Shown here: one piece after another, positions 6,159 through 36,490 of the stretch
Position numbering within the stretch: position 1 is the first letter of the stretch
Layout: every line of letters starts with the position of its first letter
From: Chthonomonadales bacterium
Lineage (GTDB): Bacteria; Armatimonadota; Chthonomonadetes; Chthonomonadales; CAJBBX01
Assembly: GCA_027459625.1 (NCBI GenBank)
Contig: DAIDHP010000012.1
Coordinates: forward strand, 1 to 64,000
Direction: 5' to 3'
DNA length: 64,000 bases
The notes under the pieces: model-generated
Seen by the model: only the letters and a program-made list of their open reading frames with translations
Told to the model about the DNA's origin: nothing
Database searches by the model: none
Program-made: the position numbers and the translations under genes

Positions 6159-7506
6159 GATTCCCGCTTTGATCGTGGTGATCGTGATAACGGCGTTGAT
6201 TTTCGACTTCATCAACGGCTTTCACGATTCCGCAAACGCCATTGCGACAGTGGTGAGCACCAGGGTTCTGTCGCCTCGGAATGCAATTTTGATGGCGGGC
6301 ATCCTCAATTTCGTGGGGGCGTTGGTATCCACCACCGTGGCGAAAACCGTTGCAGGCGGACTGGTTGGCACCAATCAGTTCGCCTCCAGTGAAGTGCGTA
6401 GCGTCCCTATGTTCCTGCAAACGCTTCAAACATCTCAGGATCCTGTGACCATTTACCTGCGATCCAATTTTTCCCTGAAAGGCAGGGAGCTTTTAGCCAC
6501 CTATAAGCCCGGAAATCTCATCACACGGCAACAGATGGACATCCTCCTTAAGGAACTCAACGCAGAATTGGAAAATCCCATGCTCTATTCCCCGCAGAGG
6601 TTCGAAGGGATTAAGCTGTCTCGCGGCACGCGCAAGCTGGTGGCAGGCGTGATCCCGCATTCCAAACTTCCTGAGGTGAACAGAGCTCTTCTGGAGGCGG
6701 CGTATCCCGGTTATTTGGAGCCGAGTCATGCGATCACCCAATCCTTGATTCTCGCAGCTATCATTGGAGCGATTACATGGGATCTGATCACCTGGAGATT
6801 TGGAATCCCTAGCAGTTCCTCTCATGCCCTAATCGGGGGGTTGATTGGAGCCGCAATTGCGCGGGGAGGGTTTGACCTGGTTATGTGGAAGGGCTTATGG
6901 GATAAGGTGATTCTTCCATTGATCTGCTCTCCGATCGCCGGGTTCATCATCGGCTTCATTCTGATGCTGACGATATTCGCTTTGTTCTCGCATGTTCATC
7001 CGGGAAAGGTCAGTTCAATTTTTCGCAAAATGCAGATGCTCTCAGCCGCCGCGATGGCATTTTCTCATGGGCAGAATGATGCGCAGAAGAGTATGGGAAT
7101 CATCACATTGTCCTTGGTGGCGATTGGGGTGTTAAAGCATCCGAACGTTCCGATTTGGGTGATCATTATTTGCGCCACATCCATGGGTTTGGGAACCGCT
7201 GCTGGCGGCTGGCGTATCATCAACACCATGGGACATAAGATTATTCGTTTGGAACCGGTTCACGGTTTCGCAGCGGAGACATCCGCAGCGTTTGTCATCT
7301 TTTTCGCCAGCCATTTCGGAATGCCGGTGAGTACGACGCACGTGATTTCCGGCAGCATCTTTGGAGTGGGATCATCCAAACGACTCTCCGCAGTTCGGTG
7401 GGGAGTGGCGGGGGATATGATCATCGCTTGGGTGCTCACCATCCCCGCCTCCGCCATAATGAGCGGTCTTGTCTATGTGATTTTCAACCTAATCGGGATG
7501 AAGTGA
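6151..7506 (+). CDS. pit: Low-affinity inorganic phosphate transporter Pit
   Basis: The 451-residue membrane protein has the duplicated PHO4 signature: FHDSANAIATVVSTRVLSPR near the N-terminus and FSHGQNDAQKSMGIITL in the second half. About 10 hydrophobic segments surround a central soluble loop (about residues 85-190). Pit carries metal-phosphate with protons. The gene overlaps the DUF47 regulator by eight bases and converges on wrbA with only eight bases between the stops. Confidence 0.95.
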   Translation: MPEIPALIVVIVITALIFDFINGFHDSANAIATVVSTRVLSPRNAILMAGILNFVGALVSTTVAKTVAGGLVGTNQFASSEVRSVPMFLQTLQTSQDPVTIYLRSNFSLKGRELLATYKPGNLITRQQMDILLKELNAELENPMLYSPQRFEGIKLSRGTRKLVAGVIPHSKLPEVNRALLEAAYPGYLEPSHAITQSLILAAIIGAITWDLITWRFGIPSSSSHALIGGLIGAAIARGGFDLVMWKGLWDKVILPLICSPIAGFIIGFILMLTIFALFSHVHPGKVSSIFRKMQMLSAAAMAFSHGQNDAQKSMGIITLSLVAIGVLKHPNVPIWVIIICATSMGLGTAAGGWRIINTMGHKIIRLEPVHGFAAETSAAFVIFFASHFGMPVSTTHVISGSIFGVGSSKRLSAVRWGVAGDMIIAWVLTIPASAIMSGLVYVIFNLIGMK

Positions 7507-10546: not shown

Positions 10547-11743
10547 TTATTGTATGGCGTATAGGTTATTATCTTCGCTTCCCACGTAAACCGTTCCATC
10601 CGCTCCGATGACCGGTGTGGATCGAACCGCCCCTCCGGTGGTTATTGTCCATTTCACGCTTCCATCCGGGTTCAGAGAGTATATGTTCTTGTCATCGCTT
10701 CCGAAATAAATCGTGCCGTCCGAGGCGATTGACGGAGAGGATTCCACAACACCTCCTGTTGCGTAAGCCCATTTTTCTGTTCCATCCGGATTGATAGCGT
10801 AAAGGTTCTTATCGTCGCTGCCCACATAGATAGTGCCATCCGTGGCGATCGCCGGCGATGAGACGATATGCCCACCGGTGGCGAAATACCAATTCCTAAC
10901 GCCGGAAGTGTTAATGGAGTAGAGGTTGTTATCGTTACTGCCGACATATACGGTGCCATTTGTTCCTATGGCGGGAGAAGAGTTCGTTATTTCATCGCCG
11001 GTGGAGTAGTTCCATTTTACTCTTCCGTTGGGGTTCACTGCATAGAGGTTGTGATCGAAACTCCCGACATAGATGGTGCCATCCGACCAAATCGCCGGAG
11101 AGGAGAAGATATAACCGGCTGAACCGAACACCCACTGCTCGGTCCCGTTAGGGTTAATCTTGTACATGTTGTTGTCGCTAGCTCCGAAAATGATATAACC
11201 ATCGGGACTGATAACGGGAGAGGATTCTATCGGCGCACTGAGCGTGATCACCCATTTTTTCGTGCCATTCGGATTAAGCGCGTACAAATTCGCGTCGCCG
11301 CTGCCAAAGAATACGGTTCCATCAGAACCGATAACCGGCGAGGATAATATCCAGCCCTGCGTGGGGAACGACCATTTTTTCGTGCCGTTCGGATTGAGCG
11401 CGTAAAAGTTATAATCATATCCTCCAACGTAGATCGTGCCATCCTGAGCGATGGCGGGGGAGGAGTTCACCCAATTGTTGGTGGGAAATGTCCATTTTTT
11501 TTGGCCGACCGCTGTGGCGGCGGCACCCCTTCCGGTATGGCTTGGATTTTGATGATACATCGGCCATGGAGAACCCGCCTGAAGGGTGTAACCGGTGACA
11601 GAGCCGCTGGAGGATGAACCTCCTTTACCGCCGCCTCCGCATCCTGTTAAAGTCGCAAACATTCCAATGGTGGATAATCCAGCGAGTCCTCCCACGACGC
11701 GTTGGAGAAATTCTCTACGATTTATCGAACGAGACTGATCCAT
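10547..11743 (-). CDS. PQQ-like eight-blade beta-propeller lipoprotein
   Basis: The 398-residue protein starts with a twin-arginine-like motif (NRREFLQ) and a lipobox (LTGC), then a Gly/Ser linker. From residue 82 there are eight near-identical blades of about 38-40 residues, each following W-x-(F/Y/I)...SSPAI..DGTIYVGS.D.NLYA(I/L)NP.G. This is the PQQ-like/WD40-like repeat used as a protein scaffold rather than an enzyme. TTAGGAG lies seven bases before the start. It is monocistronic. Neither PQQ binding nor a catalytic site is visible; the function is unknown. Confidence 0.85.
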   Translation of the reverse strand: MDQSRSINRREFLQRVVGGLAGLSTIGMFATLTGCGGGGKGGSSSSGSVTGYTLQAGSPWPMYHQNPSHTGRGAAATAVGQKKWTFPTNNWVNSSPAIAQDGTIYVGGYDYNFYALNPNGTKKWSFPTQGWILSSPVIGSDGTVFFGSGDANLYALNPNGTKKWVITLSAPIESSPVISPDGYIIFGASDNNMYKINPNGTEQWVFGSAGYIFSSPAIWSDGTIYVGSFDHNLYAVNPNGRVKWNYSTGDEITNSSPAIGTNGTVYVGSNDNNLYSINTSGVRNWYFATGGHIVSSPAIATDGTIYVGSDDKNLYAINPDGTEKWAYATGGVVESSPSIASDGTIYFGSDDKNIYSLNPDGSVKWTITTGGAVRSTPVIGADGTVYVGSEDNNLYAIQ

Positions 11744-29749: not shown

Positions 29750-29960
29750 GCGATAACTCCGAATGGGTAATTAAAGGCATTATATCACATCCCCAAGCAT
29801 GAATGAATTCATAACGCCCGCTGAAGGAATGCGCCGCATAAGAATCCAATGGCAATGGGGATGCACTCATGTAAAGTTTGGGCGCACGCCATAAATTGAC
29901 TCTCGATGAATGGATATGCTTGAAAGCATGGGAGTGAAGGGGAAAATGAAAAAAGAGAAA

Positions 29961-30042
29961 TGCCGAGGACGAGACTTGAACTCGTATGCCTTGCGGCACA
30001 CGGCCCTCAACCGTGCGCGTCTGCCAATTCCGCCACCTCGGC
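29961..30042 (-). tRNA. tRNA-Leu (anticodon GAG)
   Basis: The minus strand folds into an 82-base cloverleaf with acceptor GCCGAGG/CCTCGGC, a long variable arm (class II, typical of Leu) and an anticodon loop TTGAGGG giving GAG. The discriminator base is A. CCA is not encoded, and the 3' flank TTTCTCTTTTTT may act as a terminator. Confidence 0.95.
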
Positions 30043-30047
30043 AAGTG

Positions 30048-30119
30048 TAGCGCCACGGAGAATTGAACTCCGGCTTACGGGTTGAAAACCCGTTGTCCTA
30101 ACCTCTAGACGATGGCGCC
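30048..30119 (-). tRNA. tRNA-Glu (anticodon UUC)
   Basis: The minus strand gives a 72-base cloverleaf with acceptor GGCGCCA/TGGCGCT (first pair G-U), T-arm CGGAGTTCAATTCTCCG, and anticodon loop TTTTCAA giving TTC. It lies five bases upstream of tRNA-Leu, so both are probably cut from one transcript. CCA is not encoded. Confidence 0.95.
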
Positions 30120-30436: not shown

Positions 30437-31579
30437 ATGAAAAATATCGTTATTTTGGGTTCCACAGGCTCGATTGGGGTTCAAACGCTGGATGTTATTG
30501 ACAGATTGCCGGGAAGGTTTCGCGTCGTAGGATTGTCGGCGAGGGGAAACACCTCTCTTTTAGCCGAGCAGTGTCTTAAGTATTCACCTGAGTATGTTTC
30601 CGTTGGAACGACTGAAACTCAGGCGGAGTTGCGAGACAAACTCAGGAACTGGGATGGAAGGATACTCAACGGGCTTGATGGGATGTGTCAACTCGCCTCG
30701 CTTCCGGAAGCTGAAACGGTGGTCGTTGCGGTGGCGGGCGCGGTGGGGATACGCCCGACCCACGCCGCCATAGAAGCAGGCAAGGATGTAGCGCTCGCCA
30801 CGAAGGAGGCTTTGGTCGCCGCAGGAGAGCATACCATGCGTTTGGCGAGGAAAAGCGGCTCCCGAATACTTCCCATCGACAGCGAGCATTCCGCGATATT
30901 TCAATCGTTGCAGGGGGCGCCGCAAGGATCGGTGGAGAGAATTTTCCTAACCGCCTCGGGAGGGCCATTCCGGAACACCCCCAAGAAGGAGCTAAACAAG
31001 GTCACTCCGGAGCAGGCTCTCAAGCATCCGACTTGGAACATGGGCGGATTGGTCACCATAAACTCGTCGACCCTTTTCAACAAAGGGCTGGAAATCATAG
31101 AGGCGAAATGGTTATTTGACATGCCAACGGGAAATATCGAGGTTGTGGTTCATCCTCAAAGCATCATACACTCCGCAGTGCGATTTCGCGACGGTTCCGT
31201 TATCGCCCAACTCGGTATGCCGGACATGCGCTTGCCAATCCAGTACGCGTTGGTGTATCCTGAACGGCCGAATACGGAGTTACCTCGATTGGATCTCGCC
31301 ATGGCTGGATCTCTTACATTTGAAACACCGGATGAGGACAAATTCCCCGCTCTGCGGCTTGCACGGCGAGCTGTCGATGCCTGCGGGACGCTGCCGGCGG
31401 TGATGAACGCCGCAAACGAAGTTGCGGTGGCGCGATTTTTGAACCGGGAGATCGCTTACACGGACATCATGAAAATAGTTGAAAAGACAATGAACGATCA
31501 CAAAATCGTCATTTCCACGTATGATAATGTATTGCAGGCGGATGCCTGGGCGCGCGAACATGCGAATTCCTCCTCTTAA
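30437..31579 (+). CDS. dxr: 1-deoxy-D-xylulose 5-phosphate reductoisomerase
   Basis: The 380-residue protein has the NADPH-binding GSTGSIGVQTLDVI at its start, the metal-site IDSEHSAIFQSLQG, TASGGPFRNTPKKEL, the substrate loop HPTWNMGG and KGLEIIEAKWLFD. It makes MEP from DXP, the committed step of non-mevalonate isoprenoid synthesis. No Shine-Dalgarno sequence is visible. rseP follows after 66 bases, an arrangement common in many bacteria. Confidence 0.97.
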   Translation: MKNIVILGSTGSIGVQTLDVIDRLPGRFRVVGLSARGNTSLLAEQCLKYSPEYVSVGTTETQAELRDKLRNWDGRILNGLDGMCQLASLPEAETVVVAVAGAVGIRPTHAAIEAGKDVALATKEALVAAGEHTMRLARKSGSRILPIDSEHSAIFQSLQGAPQGSVERIFLTASGGPFRNTPKKELNKVTPEQALKHPTWNMGGLVTINSSTLFNKGLEIIEAKWLFDMPTGNIEVVVHPQSIIHSAVRFRDGSVIAQLGMPDMRLPIQYALVYPERPNTELPRLDLAMAGSLTFETPDEDKFPALRLARRAVDACGTLPAVMNAANEVAVARFLNREIAYTDIMKIVEKTMNDHKIVISTYDNVLQADAWAREHANSSS

Positions 31580-31645
31580 AAAAGAGGTCGCATGCCCATA
31601 ATAATGAAAATTGGATCTTGGATCCTCAGGGAGTTTGAATAATCA

Positions 31646-32998
31646 ATGGATGTAGTTACCGGAATAGCCTGGCTTATTTTGATTTTAAGCGTTCTCGTCA
31701 TTGCGCATGAATGGGGGCATTTCATTGTGGCGAAACTGTTTAAAATGCGTGTTGACGAGTTTTCGCTTTTTTTCGGCCCTCCTTTGCTGCAACTGGGTAA
31801 ATGGCACGATACCGAATACAACATTCGCAGCTTTCCCCTGGGCGGCTATGTAAAGATCGCAGGGATGGAGGCGGATGACATATCCGGTGGCCGACCGATA
31901 TTGGAGGCGATCCGCTCTCCGCAACAGGAACATCAGAGCATGGACGATATTCTACGCAAGTTGAAATCGGACACCATGAACGATGTGAACGTGGAGAATA
32001 TCGGCGCGGAGCTGCGTGACCGCGTTCGAAATTCCATTGGGGAAGACGGATTATTAACCTCCGAAGCCCGGAAGGATTTTCAGGCTCTTCGGTTAACCCC
32101 GCAGGTCAACGCTGATGAGATGAAGTTTTTGGATATGGCGCTCTCCTCCGACGAACACTTGAGAGATAAAGGGTTGTACAGCAACAAACCTTTGTATCAG
32201 AGAGCCTTGGTGATCTTCGCCGGGCCCTTCATGAGCTGTTTCTTCGGATACCTTCTGTTCGTGTTTATGGGCATGACCCTTGGGATGCCAAGCATGTCTC
32301 GCAGCACAAACCAAATCCAAGTCATTCCTAACGGCGCGGCGGAGATGGCGGGTTTGCGTACCGGCGATCGGATCATCGCCATAGATGGTAAGCCCACTCC
32401 CAACGGAACTGCATTGAAAAACATCATCCATAACGCCCCTAACCATCCGATGCGGTTTCGGATTGACAGAGAGGGCCATGTTTTCGATGTGCTTATGAAA
32501 CCGAAGCCCTTCACATTCACGGATGTTGTGAACGGTGTGAAGGTGAAAAAAACCATTGGCTTGATAGGGGTTTACCCCAATCCTGTATTCGTGCGAGTGG
32601 GGCTCATCGAGTCCATCAGGGGAGGAACGATAGGTACCATCAACACCATTTACGAACTGCTTACCGGTCTTTTCAGCAAGAACGTGAAGAACAACGTGGG
32701 CGGTCCGATCATGATCGGCGAAATGACCATCTCCCTCCAACGGTTGGGTGTCGCGCGGTTGGTGGAGATGGGCGGGATGCTCAGCCTCAGCCTTGGGGTG
32801 ATGAACCTGCTTCCCATCCCAATCCTCGATGGCGGGCATCTACTCCTGTTAGGCATTGAGAAGATACGCCGACGAAAGCTCTCCGCAAAAGAGATATATC
32901 GCGCCCAGATGGTGGGACTGGGGCTTTTGGGCATCCTCATTTGCATGGTGATGTATAACGATTTGATTCGCACAATCTCCGGCAAGGGTTTCCAATAA
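31646..32998 (+). CDS. rseP: Site-2 protease RseP (RIP metalloprotease)
   Basis: The 450-residue membrane protease has HEWGHFIVAKLFKM near residue 21, the second metal motif NLLPIPILDGGHLL near residue 390, and one PDZ domain in between (GAAEMAGLRTGDRIIAIDGKP). About 100 extra residues with charged helices sit between the first helix and the PDZ region. It cuts within membranes, for example anti-sigma factors; an ECF sigma/anti-sigma/RseB module lies at 48.6-51.2 kb in this window. It is downstream of dxr. Confidence 0.95.
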   Translation: MDVVTGIAWLILILSVLVIAHEWGHFIVAKLFKMRVDEFSLFFGPPLLQLGKWHDTEYNIRSFPLGGYVKIAGMEADDISGGRPILEAIRSPQQEHQSMDDILRKLKSDTMNDVNVENIGAELRDRVRNSIGEDGLLTSEARKDFQALRLTPQVNADEMKFLDMALSSDEHLRDKGLYSNKPLYQRALVIFAGPFMSCFFGYLLFVFMGMTLGMPSMSRSTNQIQVIPNGAAEMAGLRTGDRIIAIDGKPTPNGTALKNIIHNAPNHPMRFRIDREGHVFDVLMKPKPFTFTDVVNGVKVKKTIGLIGVYPNPVFVRVGLIESIRGGTIGTINTIYELLTGLFSKNVKNNVGGPIMIGEMTISLQRLGVARLVEMGGMLSLSLGVMNLLPIPILDGGHLLLLGIEKIRRRKLSAKEIYRAQMVGLGLLGILICMVMYNDLIRTISGKGFQ

Positions 32999-34320: not shown

Positions 34321-35016
34321 TTACTTTCGTCCAGTGCGGAGGATTTCAGAAAGGCGGGTTATGATTACTCTATCCAGTGACAACGCTTCCAATTGGCGGA
34401 TTGTCTCCTCCACCGGATACTCCGCTTTCATCAAGCGTGCCTCGCCATCTTCCCAAACGGCGAAGGAGGAACGCGGGTCCCCCTGCTTCGGCTGTCCCAC
34501 GCTCCCCGGATTGATTACCGTCTTGCCGAGCACGTGAATTACGGATGGGAGATGGGTGTGCCCCATGAGAATAACATCGGCGTCAACCTTCTTAATCTCT
34601 TCGGAGAGGTTATCTTGCGTTAGAGGATTGGGAAGGTATCGATGAAGAGGATCAAGCGGTGCGGCGTGAACGGCGTAAAACCTTGCTCCGCCAAACTCGA
34701 AAGAGAGTTCCAGGGGATTATCGCGCAGATACGCCTTGTCACTCTCCCCCAGGATGCGCCTATGGAGGTCCTTTGTCGCCAAAGCCATCTCGCGGTAGGC
34801 TGCGCTGCATTGCGGGTCGGCGTCGAACCCCACGGCATGATCATGGTTGCCTCGCACGATTTGATCCGCATGTTCTCGCGCCCAAGCGATGCACTCCGCT
34901 GGACAAGGTCCGTAATCCACAAGGTCACCAAGGCAGACGACGATATCAGCTGACTCGGTTATTGCTTGAAGAGCCATCCAGTTTGCGTGGATATCCGACA
35001 CGATCAGCATTTTCAT
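34321..35016 (-). CDS. Calcineurin-like metallophosphoesterase (YfcE/MJ0936-like)
   Basis: The 231-residue protein has all metal-site motifs: SDIHANW, GDLVDYG, GNHDH, AVHAAP and GHTH, plus VINPGSVGQPKQGD. These enzymes hydrolyse phosphodiesters or phosphomonoesters with two metal ions. It is the third gene of a tight operon (16-base gap) led by a fluoride-type riboswitch. Fluoride inhibits many metal-dependent phosphatases, so raising the dose under fluoride makes sense, though this is inference. Confidence 0.9.
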   Translation of the reverse strand: MKMLIVSDIHANWMALQAITESADIVVCLGDLVDYGPCPAECIAWAREHADQIVRGNHDHAVGFDADPQCSAAYREMALATKDLHRRILGESDKAYLRDNPLELSFEFGGARFYAVHAAPLDPLHRYLPNPLTQDNLSEEIKKVDADVILMGHTHLPSVIHVLGKTVINPGSVGQPKQGDPRSSFAVWEDGEARLMKAEYPVEETIRQLEALSLDRVIITRLSEILRTGRK

Positions 35017-35032
35017 TAAAACGCTCCCAGTC

Positions 35033-35506
35033 TTATTCGGCGATCTTAGTCGTAATCATGCGCGCCGCCGCTCTGAAATTATTGAGTTGATACCATGGAA
35101 GAATGATTTCAAACGGTGGAGCGTTTCCAGCGGATTGCAATGTGAATCTTCCCCTAAGAAGAGCGTGACCGATTCCAACCGAGGCGATTTGCTTGTAAGG
35201 ATAAAACAGAGATATCACACCCCATTTTTGATTTAGGATTACGCTCTCACCCTCTTCCAAGCAAAGAACTCCCCTCCGGATCATTACGATTGACTTGGAT
35301 GGAATCCATTCAAGAATATGGGTCGATGGTATGAATAGCGTTGCCTCAGGAATCTCCTCCGTATGCAGCCATTGCCGCGTGGTTTCTTCGAATTCATAAG
35401 GCATCCATTGAGAGAGATTCAAATTCGTATCCGGAGGCTGCTCGGTCTCCGTTTCAATAGGTATCGATTTTTTGCCAAAGAATGACGCCCATTCTCTTTT
35501 ATTCAT
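35033..35506 (-). CDS. Small protein of unknown function
   Basis: The 157-residue protein is soluble by appearance. After an N-terminal basic stretch and an acidic linker, the second half alternates hydrophobic strands (ILNQKWGVISLFYPYKQIASVGIG, RGRFTLQSAG, FEIILPW) and could be a PH-like barrel, but I do not recognise the family. The ATG at 35506 has GGAGGG six bases upstream. It lies 17 bases after the DUF6062 stop and 16 bases before the phosphoesterase start. Confidence 0.8.
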   Translation of the reverse strand: MNKREWASFFGKKSIPIETETEQPPDTNLNLSQWMPYEFEETTRQWLHTEEIPEATLFIPSTHILEWIPSKSIVMIRRGVLCLEEGESVILNQKWGVISLFYPYKQIASVGIGHALLRGRFTLQSAGNAPPFEIILPWYQLNNFRAAARMITTKIAE

Positions 35507-35523
35507 CCGCACCCTCCGATAAA

Positions 35524-36267
35524 TTACACATCCTCGATATGTCGCATCAAAAAAGAATCGGATATTCTCTGAATGTTTCCACCAGAAATCTTCTCCATCG
35601 CGCGGGACCATGCGTTTCCTTCAGTTCCAATTGGCTCCCCCAGAAAACGGTAGTCAGATTTGCGAATGAATTCTCCTAACTCATCCATAAGGAGACGCAT
35701 CTTTCTCTCTTCACACATTGCGAGCCATTTCGCCGTCTCCTCATTGCAATAGCCATATATTCCCTCCAAGTGAGGCAGGCATAATCCAAAACCGTTCTGA
35801 TAGAGCGTTCGAATGTCGCTCTCCCTGAGCGCAACCCCCAAGGCGTAAAGATAGAGATGTGTGTCTTCCCGCTCCATGACGCATAAAGGGCACTCCGTGC
35901 GCTGTTCCGTTGGTGCGCCGTATCCATCACGCTTCGTATGATGCAGGAACTGCATCAGTAAATCCCTTGAAATGATCGTTAAGCCCAAAGCGTTTCCACA
36001 GCGCACAGCATCTGCGGCGTGTCGGGAACAGTAGCCCATGGAAGATCGTAACTCCTCGCGAAAGCCCGGATCGTTCACATTTTCATGGAAGAGATAACCG
36101 AGCCTCTCGTCCGTGGAAGCTTGCAGCAGCGTGCAGATAGGGCAATGAGGGATCACGAGCGTTTCCCTCACTTCGTGATAAAGAGTGTCATGATCGGGGA
36201 AGAGGTTGCCATTCCTCTTTCGAACTGGTTGAAGTCGCTTCCAGATAGAACGGATGTTGGATTTCAA
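35524..36267 (-). CDS. DUF6062-type protein with two CPxC...CxxH modules
   Basis: The product of about 247 residues contains two copies of one pattern: CPIC then CSRH 35 residues later (residues 42-83), and CPLC then CLPH 34 residues later (126-166). The spacing looks like duplicated zinc- or metal-binding modules in a helical protein. It resembles the DUF6062 family, whose function is not known to me. The TTG at 36267 has AAAAGGAG six bases upstream and is preferred to the ATG at 36318, which lacks a ribosome-binding site. It is the first gene after the riboswitch. Confidence 0.8.
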   Translation of the reverse strand: MKSNIRSIWKRLQPVRKRNGNLFPDHDTLYHEVRETLVIPHCPICTLLQASTDERLGYLFHENVNDPGFREELRSSMGYCSRHAADAVRCGNALGLTIISRDLLMQFLHHTKRDGYGAPTEQRTECPLCVMEREDTHLYLYALGVALRESDIRTLYQNGFGLCLPHLEGIYGYCNEETAKWLAMCEERKMRLLMDELGEFIRKSDYRFLGEPIGTEGNAWSRAMEKISGGNIQRISDSFLMRHIEDV

Positions 36268-36346
36268 GCCATGCTCCTTTTGAAAATATCGGATTATGTG
36301 TGGTTGAGCTCGATGCATTTATTCAAGGCGCATAGAAGAGGGTAAT

Positions 36347-36446
36347 AAAAAAGCCCCTCACACACGCATCCGCATGTCGGTAAGGAGCCATCAGCTTATT
36401 GAGGGCGGTTCGGGTGGATACTCCATCCAGGCGGTCTCCATCGCCG
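36347..36446 (-). promoter_or_regulatory. Fluoride (crcB-motif) riboswitch with intrinsic terminator
   Basis: Read on the minus strand, the aptamer begins GGCGATGGAGACCGCC (36445-36430) and later has GAACCGCC (36411-36404) and GCTGATGGCTCCTTACC (36395-36379), matching fluoride riboswitch landmarks. GGAG (36439-36436) can pair with CTCC (36387-36384). That CTCC is also in the 5' arm of a terminator: nine pairs between 36388-36380 and 36361-36353, then six more (36377-36372 with 36367-36362), and six T at 36352-36347. An extra hairpin TGGAT/ATCCA (36429-36415) is inserted, and the helix before GATGG looks short. Fluoride binding would favour read-through into the DUF6062 operon. Confidence 0.88.
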
Positions 36447-36461
36447 GATAAAATCGAACCT

Positions 36462-36490
36462 ATTATAACGCGCTTCATCGGGATTGTCAA
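36462..36490 (-). promoter_or_regulatory. Consensus promoter of the riboswitch operon
   Basis: On the minus strand TTGACA (36490-36485), a 17-base spacer and TATAAT (36467-36462) match the consensus fully. Transcription would start near 36455, about ten bases before the riboswitch. Confidence 0.92.

Follow-up and report, generated by a model that had tools for sequence, protein, structure and literature searches.

Why would a fluoride riboswitch stand before a set of genes that does not include an exporter? This arrangement was predicted for part of a 64,000-nucleotide stretch of DNA (the window) from a Chthonomonadales bacterium, of the phylum Armatimonadota. The first of the three genes belongs to the uncharacterised family DUF6062. 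The fluoride genes that have already been named include exporters, Na+/H+ antiporters, pyrophosphatase, HAD phosphoesterases, enolase, UspA, mutS, and formate hydrogenlyase (PMC11139923, PMC2864571). In the open-access literature, we found no mention of DUF6062 and no link between fluoride riboswitches and either dynamin or the Armatimonadota. We propose, and consider it likely, that an ON-type riboswitch controls the three-gene operon and that DUF6062 is a core and previously unrecognised member of the fluoride regulon in this phylum, alongside export. The kind of riboswitch is known; what is new is the place of DUF6062 in the regulon and the variant structure of the aptamer.

The riboswitch leader and its operon

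The features of the locus are listed in Table 1, and both the anatomy of the switch and the operon can be read directly from the DNA. The promoter was expected to match the full consensus and to lie within about ten bases of the aptamer. It is the sole TTGACA-N17-TATAAT match in the region, and the distance from it to the aptamer is 8 bases. The Rfam model RF01734 matches the aptamer (36454-36375 on the minus strand) from end to end, with 32.8 bits and E = 1.9e-6 when 4 kb was scanned. An Infernal search with this model had been put forward as the check on the prediction, and its outcome is mixed: the match is full-length and has a low E value, but it falls 1.2 bits short of the gathering score, 34. 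For this reason, a default Rfam scan of the window at the curated cut-offs did not report a fluoride riboswitch and returned two tRNAs only. A covariance model from 17 Armatimonadota aptamers, with the window copy left out (model R1), gives the site 58.6 bits (E = 4.4e-13), and in the 64 kb R1 found no second site above 12 bits. R1 also matched 26541-26501 weakly (E = 0.3); this was treated as chance, as were weak snoRNA and TMV pseudoknot matches in the 4-kb scan. (Genes for tRNA-Leu(gag) and tRNA-Glu(ttc) lie at 29960-30119 on the minus strand and adjoin long plus-strand ORFs at 30437-32998.)

Within the aptamer, the GGAG in the P1 loop and the downstream CUCC show the complementarity of a pseudoknot, with a non-Watson-Crick position 2. 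Read against the RF01734 alignment, the window copy has A6, U7, G8, U38, A40, U41, G42, and U48. We take A6, U7, G8, U38, U41, and G42 to be the fluoride-pocket positions of the crystal structure (T. petrophila numbering), and A40-U48 is the linchpin of the fluoride riboswitch (PMC8752731). A6 and U48 are invariant in 82 aptamers, although the search pattern itself demanded A/G at 6 and U/C at 48. P3 in the window has two of four pairs, the two outer ones, with C.A mismatches at the inner two, and is this poor in 5 of 80 aptamers. Given these mismatches and the sub-threshold RF01734 score, the fluoride affinity of the window copy may be reduced; a response of this copy to fluoride is predicted.

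The predicted terminator, with its 15 pairs, its six T, and a 5' arm that shares CTCC with the aptamer helix, is also present. None of 200 shuffled sequences matched its energy, and it forms in the predicted minimum-energy fold of the whole leader. Its 5' arm GCUCC (36388-36384) contains the 3' strand of the pseudoknot, and a terminator that overlaps the pseudoknot is the standard ON architecture of fluoride riboswitches (PMC2864571, PMC11077080). Sequence and predicted structure support the proposal that a transcriptional fluoride riboswitch of the ON type controls an operon without a transporter gene. Without fluoride, formation of the terminator would invade the CUCC strand of the pseudoknot, and transcription would stop. 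Mg-bound fluoride would lock the pseudoknot through its A40-U48 linchpin, and the polymerase would read through.

The three genes are as tightly spaced as had been claimed (gaps of 17 nt between DUF6062 and the small protein and 16 nt between the small protein and the metallophosphoesterase), and the first and last match PF19538 and TIGR00040. We placed the DUF6062 start at the TTG at 36267, which has a Shine-Dalgarno sequence (AAAGGAG, 36280-36274), and this replaced an ATG at 36318. The operon is bounded upstream by a divergent gene and downstream by a convergent DNA methylase.

Table 1. Features of the riboswitch leader and operon, in window coordinates.
Feature	Position	Strand	Evidence or remark
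Sigma-70 promoter TTGACA-N17-TATAAT	36490-36462	-	12/12 consensus letters
Fluoride (crcB) riboswitch aptamer, Armatimonadota variant form	36454-36375	-	RF01734 and leave-one-out model
P1 hairpin GGCG-AUGGAGAC-CGCC	36445-36430	-	Sequence and alignments
Pseudoknot 5' strand GGAG	36439-36436	-	Within P1 loop
Structured insert, extra hairpin UGGAU/AUCCA between P1 and AACCGC	36429-36411	-	Insert in RF01734 alignment
P3, GC/GC only	36406-36394	-	Two inner C.A mismatches in window copy
GAUG, position 43 G, pseudoknot 3' strand CUCC (36387-36384), and linchpin U48 (36383)	36392-36383	-	Sequence
Intrinsic terminator, 15 pairs	36388-36353, T6 36352-36347	-	Fold -21.2 kcal/mol, z -4.98
DUF6062 (PF19538) gene, 247 aa	35524-36267	-	PF19538 78.9 bits, cut-off 27
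Small orphan protein gene, 157 aa	35033-35506	-	No Pfam or NCBIfam match
YfcE-family metallophosphoesterase gene, 231 aa	34321-35016	-	TIGR00040 69.1 bits, cut-off 56.25

The window operon has no exporter gene, and the exporter is encoded on another contig. Going beyond the original prediction, we found a classic crcB fluoride island there. RF01734 has three matches in the whole genome, and the two that remain are on contig C39 (locus L004) at 10576-10639 and 6177-6222, both on the minus strand. The order on C39 is riboswitch, cytidylate-kinase-like gene, CMAS, CrcB, CitMHS transporter, DUF190, riboswitch, enolase, and dynamin-like GTPase. The genome thus has a fluoride island of the conventional kind, exporter included, and the window operon belongs to the same regulon as a distinct unit without an exporter. 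The fluoride-resistance operon of Enterobacter cloacae FRM (ppaC-uspA-eno-gpmA-crcB-orf5249; PMC5533749) is likewise a multi-gene fluoride-riboswitch operon with non-transport genes (a stress protein, enolase, and a phosphatase-type enzyme). However, its six named genes include no DUF6062, small partner, or YfcE phosphodiesterase, whereas it is the exporter that the window operon lacks.

A structural variant of the aptamer

The aptamer is a lineage variant, which also goes beyond the original prediction. It resembles the crcB-type riboswitch (RF01734) of B. cereus in the pseudoknot between the P1 loop and CUCC, the pocket residues, the overlap of terminator and pseudoknot, and the ON logic (PMC2864571, PMC8752731, PMC11077080). 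It differs in its extra covarying hairpin after P1, its weak P3, its pseudoknot position 2 (an A.G mismatch or bulged purine in place of U-A) and position 1 (C-G in place of U.G), and its control of DUF6062 rather than an exporter.

Published work gives a U.G wobble for position 1 in B. cereus and reports U-A at position 2 for 75% of Rfam sequences (PMC11077080). We tabulated these pseudoknot positions for 82 aptamers, drawn from the Armatimonadota and the Clostridia. Of the 82, 44 have U-A at position 2 and 26 have A.G or G.G there, among them the window copy with its A.G, and 17 of these 26 purine-G aptamers also have C-G at position 1. Between P1 and AACCGC, 24/26 purine-G aptamers but 6/44 canonical ones have an additional hairpin with four or more pairs (Fisher p = 4e-11), and two-sided changes are seen at all five pairs of this hairpin in the 17-sequence alignment. 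RNAalifold favours a bulged purine with a C13-G43 pair, so position 2 could be either a mismatch or a bulge. The B. cereus switch becomes almost fully antiterminating once its position-1 wobble is changed to C-G (PMC11077080), and the variant could regain its switching through a weak pair at position 2. These natural pseudoknot variants offer a test of whether one weak pair alone decides switching, as has been claimed for fluoride riboswitches (PMC11077080).

The ligand of the variant is very probably still fluoride because the same variant also precedes crcB genes (L046-L048, L053, L056, and L062). In predicted folds, 74 of the 82 aptamers pair three or more bases of the GCUCC region with a downstream arm (45 of these 74 have at least 5 U in the next ten bases). 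A different platform may operate in G015, where the leader of DUF6062 (L077:7220-7287) reads CCUAGGAGGAGAGAAUG. Judged by eye, the likely target of this leader is the Shine-Dalgarno sequence, which it would cover, rather than a terminator; the gene downstream is again DUF6062.

Linkage of DUF6062 to fluoride riboswitches

Whether DUF6062 genes elsewhere also follow crcB motifs was asked of 291 Armatimonadota genomes, and we counted a DUF6062 gene as linked if a riboswitch was at most 6 kb upstream on the same strand. DUF6062 is present in 42 genomes and RF01734 matches in 93, and 33 of the 42 DUF6062 genomes also have RF01734 (versus 93/291 overall; Fisher p = 2e-11). Linked DUF6062 genes were found in 24/42 genomes from 14 families, against 0.04 expected under random placement (the Poisson p of about 1e-57 is a rough figure, as it assumes an independence that the genomes do not have). 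Better evidence for linkage than this co-location probability comes from the spread over 14 families and from the gene tree. In the tree (67 sequences), linked copies occur across nearly the whole Armatimonadota part, with at least 5 changes of linked state.

Judging from coordinates, the riboswitch is followed immediately by DUF6062 in 18 of the 24 linked genomes, and some linked operons carry tandem DUF6062 copies. The linked operons also hold crcB, enolase, a Na+/H+ exchanger, UspA, DUF190, MFS, a dynamin-like GTPase, a HEAT-repeat protein, and a helical protein of about 150 aa, which we will term 'c4'. These partners are known or suspected fluoride genes. As an association, then, the suggested role of DUF6062 in fluoride tolerance is well supported, with the linked genes usually sitting with known fluoride-tolerance genes.

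Two of the partners recur more widely. 'c4', which has the motif GRSPxxGxxLTPL and no convincing Pfam or NCBIfam match, is present in 38/291 genomes, and at 27 of its 40 places a fluoride riboswitch lies upstream on the same strand, at a distance of up to 6 kb (examples of 'c4' are L080:6071-6526, L077:5264-5722, and L093:8718-9179). The dynamin-like GTPase recurs in fluoride-riboswitch operons of two phyla (for example L080:8169-9971 and, in the Clostridia class, L216:3124-4857).

The riboswitch link is absent in 18 of the 42 DUF6062 genomes from the Armatimonadota, and a congener (G001) lacks DUF6062. In the main unlinked clade (family f3), DUF6062 lies beside a predicted coiled-coil protein, 'c2', instead of a riboswitch (L065, L067-L069, L071, L073-L075, L079, and L085-L087). 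The one 'c2' member that was scanned had no Pfam match. Outside the phylum, a DUF6062 search of genome contigs gave Ruminiclostridium hungatei as its sole match, with no fluoride riboswitch. In the class of Ruminiclostridium (Clostridia), DUF6062 is present in 132/245 genomes, and among the 245 it is next to a fluoride riboswitch in one only, G425. There, the riboswitch directly precedes a DUF6062 without its N-terminal part (L206:6477-7193), which is a cross-phylum recurrence that is apparently decaying; a second riboswitch in G425 precedes crcB-crcB-DUF190-dynamin. Because 18/42 Armatimonadota genomes are unlinked and the Clostridia, with DUF6062 in more than half of the genomes, have this one linked case, DUF6062 is not fluoride-specific as a family. 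The neighbours of the clostridial genes are heterogeneous and yield no functional hint. The clostridial PF19538 proteins resemble the window protein along their full length, including both CxxC/CxxH sets and the RKxDYRF...G...RA tail, but the sampled members have no upstream fluoride riboswitch except for the truncated copy.

Proteins of the operon and their role

In 30 DUF6062 sequences, C42, C45, G78, C80, H83, C126, C129, C163, and H166 are invariant, and the window protein has all nine. These residues make up two CxxC...CxxH sets, which are followed by the conserved tail. The two halves of the protein are an internal duplication (hhalign 98.2%, E = 2.8e-14), and the natural reading would be one putative, zinc-like metal site per half. 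AlphaFold2 models of DUF6062 (from a two-sequence alignment; pLDDT 38, pTM 0.36) and of the small protein (from a single sequence; pLDDT 37, pTM 0.29) were discarded, and PDB sequence searches with DUF6062 and with a profile of the small protein gave nothing meaningful. The small orphan protein occurs in 3/291 genomes, each time beside DUF6062.

The metallophosphoesterase (PF12850, 81.4 bits; PDB 3rqz, E = 5e-24) keeps the D-x-H, GD, GNHD, and GHTH metal-binding motifs that it shares with YfcE (TIGR00040) and 3rqz. It differs from them in its longer C-terminal part and in its setting in a fluoride-riboswitch operon. In G018, a homologue lies directly after DUF6062 in a riboswitch operon (L090:6567-7286) and has lost three of the motifs (GD, GNHD, and GHTH). 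From this loss, the G018 protein is likely a pseudoenzyme, and so the phosphoesterase would not be a purely catalytic part everywhere.

The phosphodiesterase could nonetheless be the functional payload, by adding a further copy of a metal-dependent enzyme that is sensitive to fluoride. Its metal-binding motifs are intact in the window, and pyrophosphatase and HAD phosphoesterases are often found in fluoride operons (PMC11139923). However, it is present in only 2 of the surveyed operons, one of them with degraded motifs, while DUF6062 is in all 24, and we consider it quite improbable that the phosphodiesterase rather than DUF6062 is the point of the operon. A somewhat stronger candidate, though still an unlikely one, is a real riboswitch that has brought DUF6062 and its neighbours under fluoride control as passengers or general stress genes, with no specific role in fluoride tolerance. 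This would fit with the many clostridial DUF6062 genes that lack a riboswitch, with the unrelated coiled-coil neighbour in one Armatimonadota clade, and with the presence of general stress genes such as UspA in DUF6062 operons. But passengers would not be kept so consistently as to recur behind the riboswitch in 14 families, often as the first gene and in tandem copies, and on the gene tree the link is old.

The variant form of the aptamer (purine 12, G 43, and the extra hairpin) raises another explanation: either its ligand has changed or the leader has decayed and terminates constitutively, and in both cases the operon would not be induced by fluoride. The A.G at a position that is U-A in most of Rfam (PMC11077080), the weak P3, and the sub-threshold Rfam score all point this way. 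Yet the window copy keeps every residue of the ligand pocket, crcB operons of several genomes are under the same variant, the ORFs of the operon are intact, and the promoter and terminator are in perfect order. This explanation seems highly unlikely.

We return to a proposed fluoride-responsive operon with DUF6062 at its core. In this proposal, DUF6062 would most likely be a cytoplasmic protein with two predicted CCCH metal sites, and not an exporter; it would most likely protect or tune a metal-dependent process that is hit by fluoride, alongside export by CrcB. By analogy with the pyrophosphatase and HAD phosphatases of other fluoride operons, the phosphodiesterase would most likely add metal-dependent phosphoesterase capacity. 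The metal or phosphate chemistry hinted at in the original prediction would fit both the two invariant CxxC/CxxH sets of DUF6062 and the metal-dependent family of the phosphoesterase. More tentatively, DUF6062, 'c4', and the orphan partner might together form a non-export fluoride-tolerance system that is built on a duplicated metal-binding module and is controlled by the variant aptamer, with its position-2 weak point and added covarying hairpin; we would put this a little short of an even chance.

Because the riboswitch repeatedly precedes DUF6062 across the phylum, the family is probably an overlooked part of fluoride survival in these bacteria. The riboswitch link ties this uncharacterised family to a condition defined by a ligand, fluoride, and to a group of partner genes, so that its function can be tested directly. 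Our results also suggest that fluoride tolerance includes dedicated non-export proteins that are not named in the open-access reviews we consulted.
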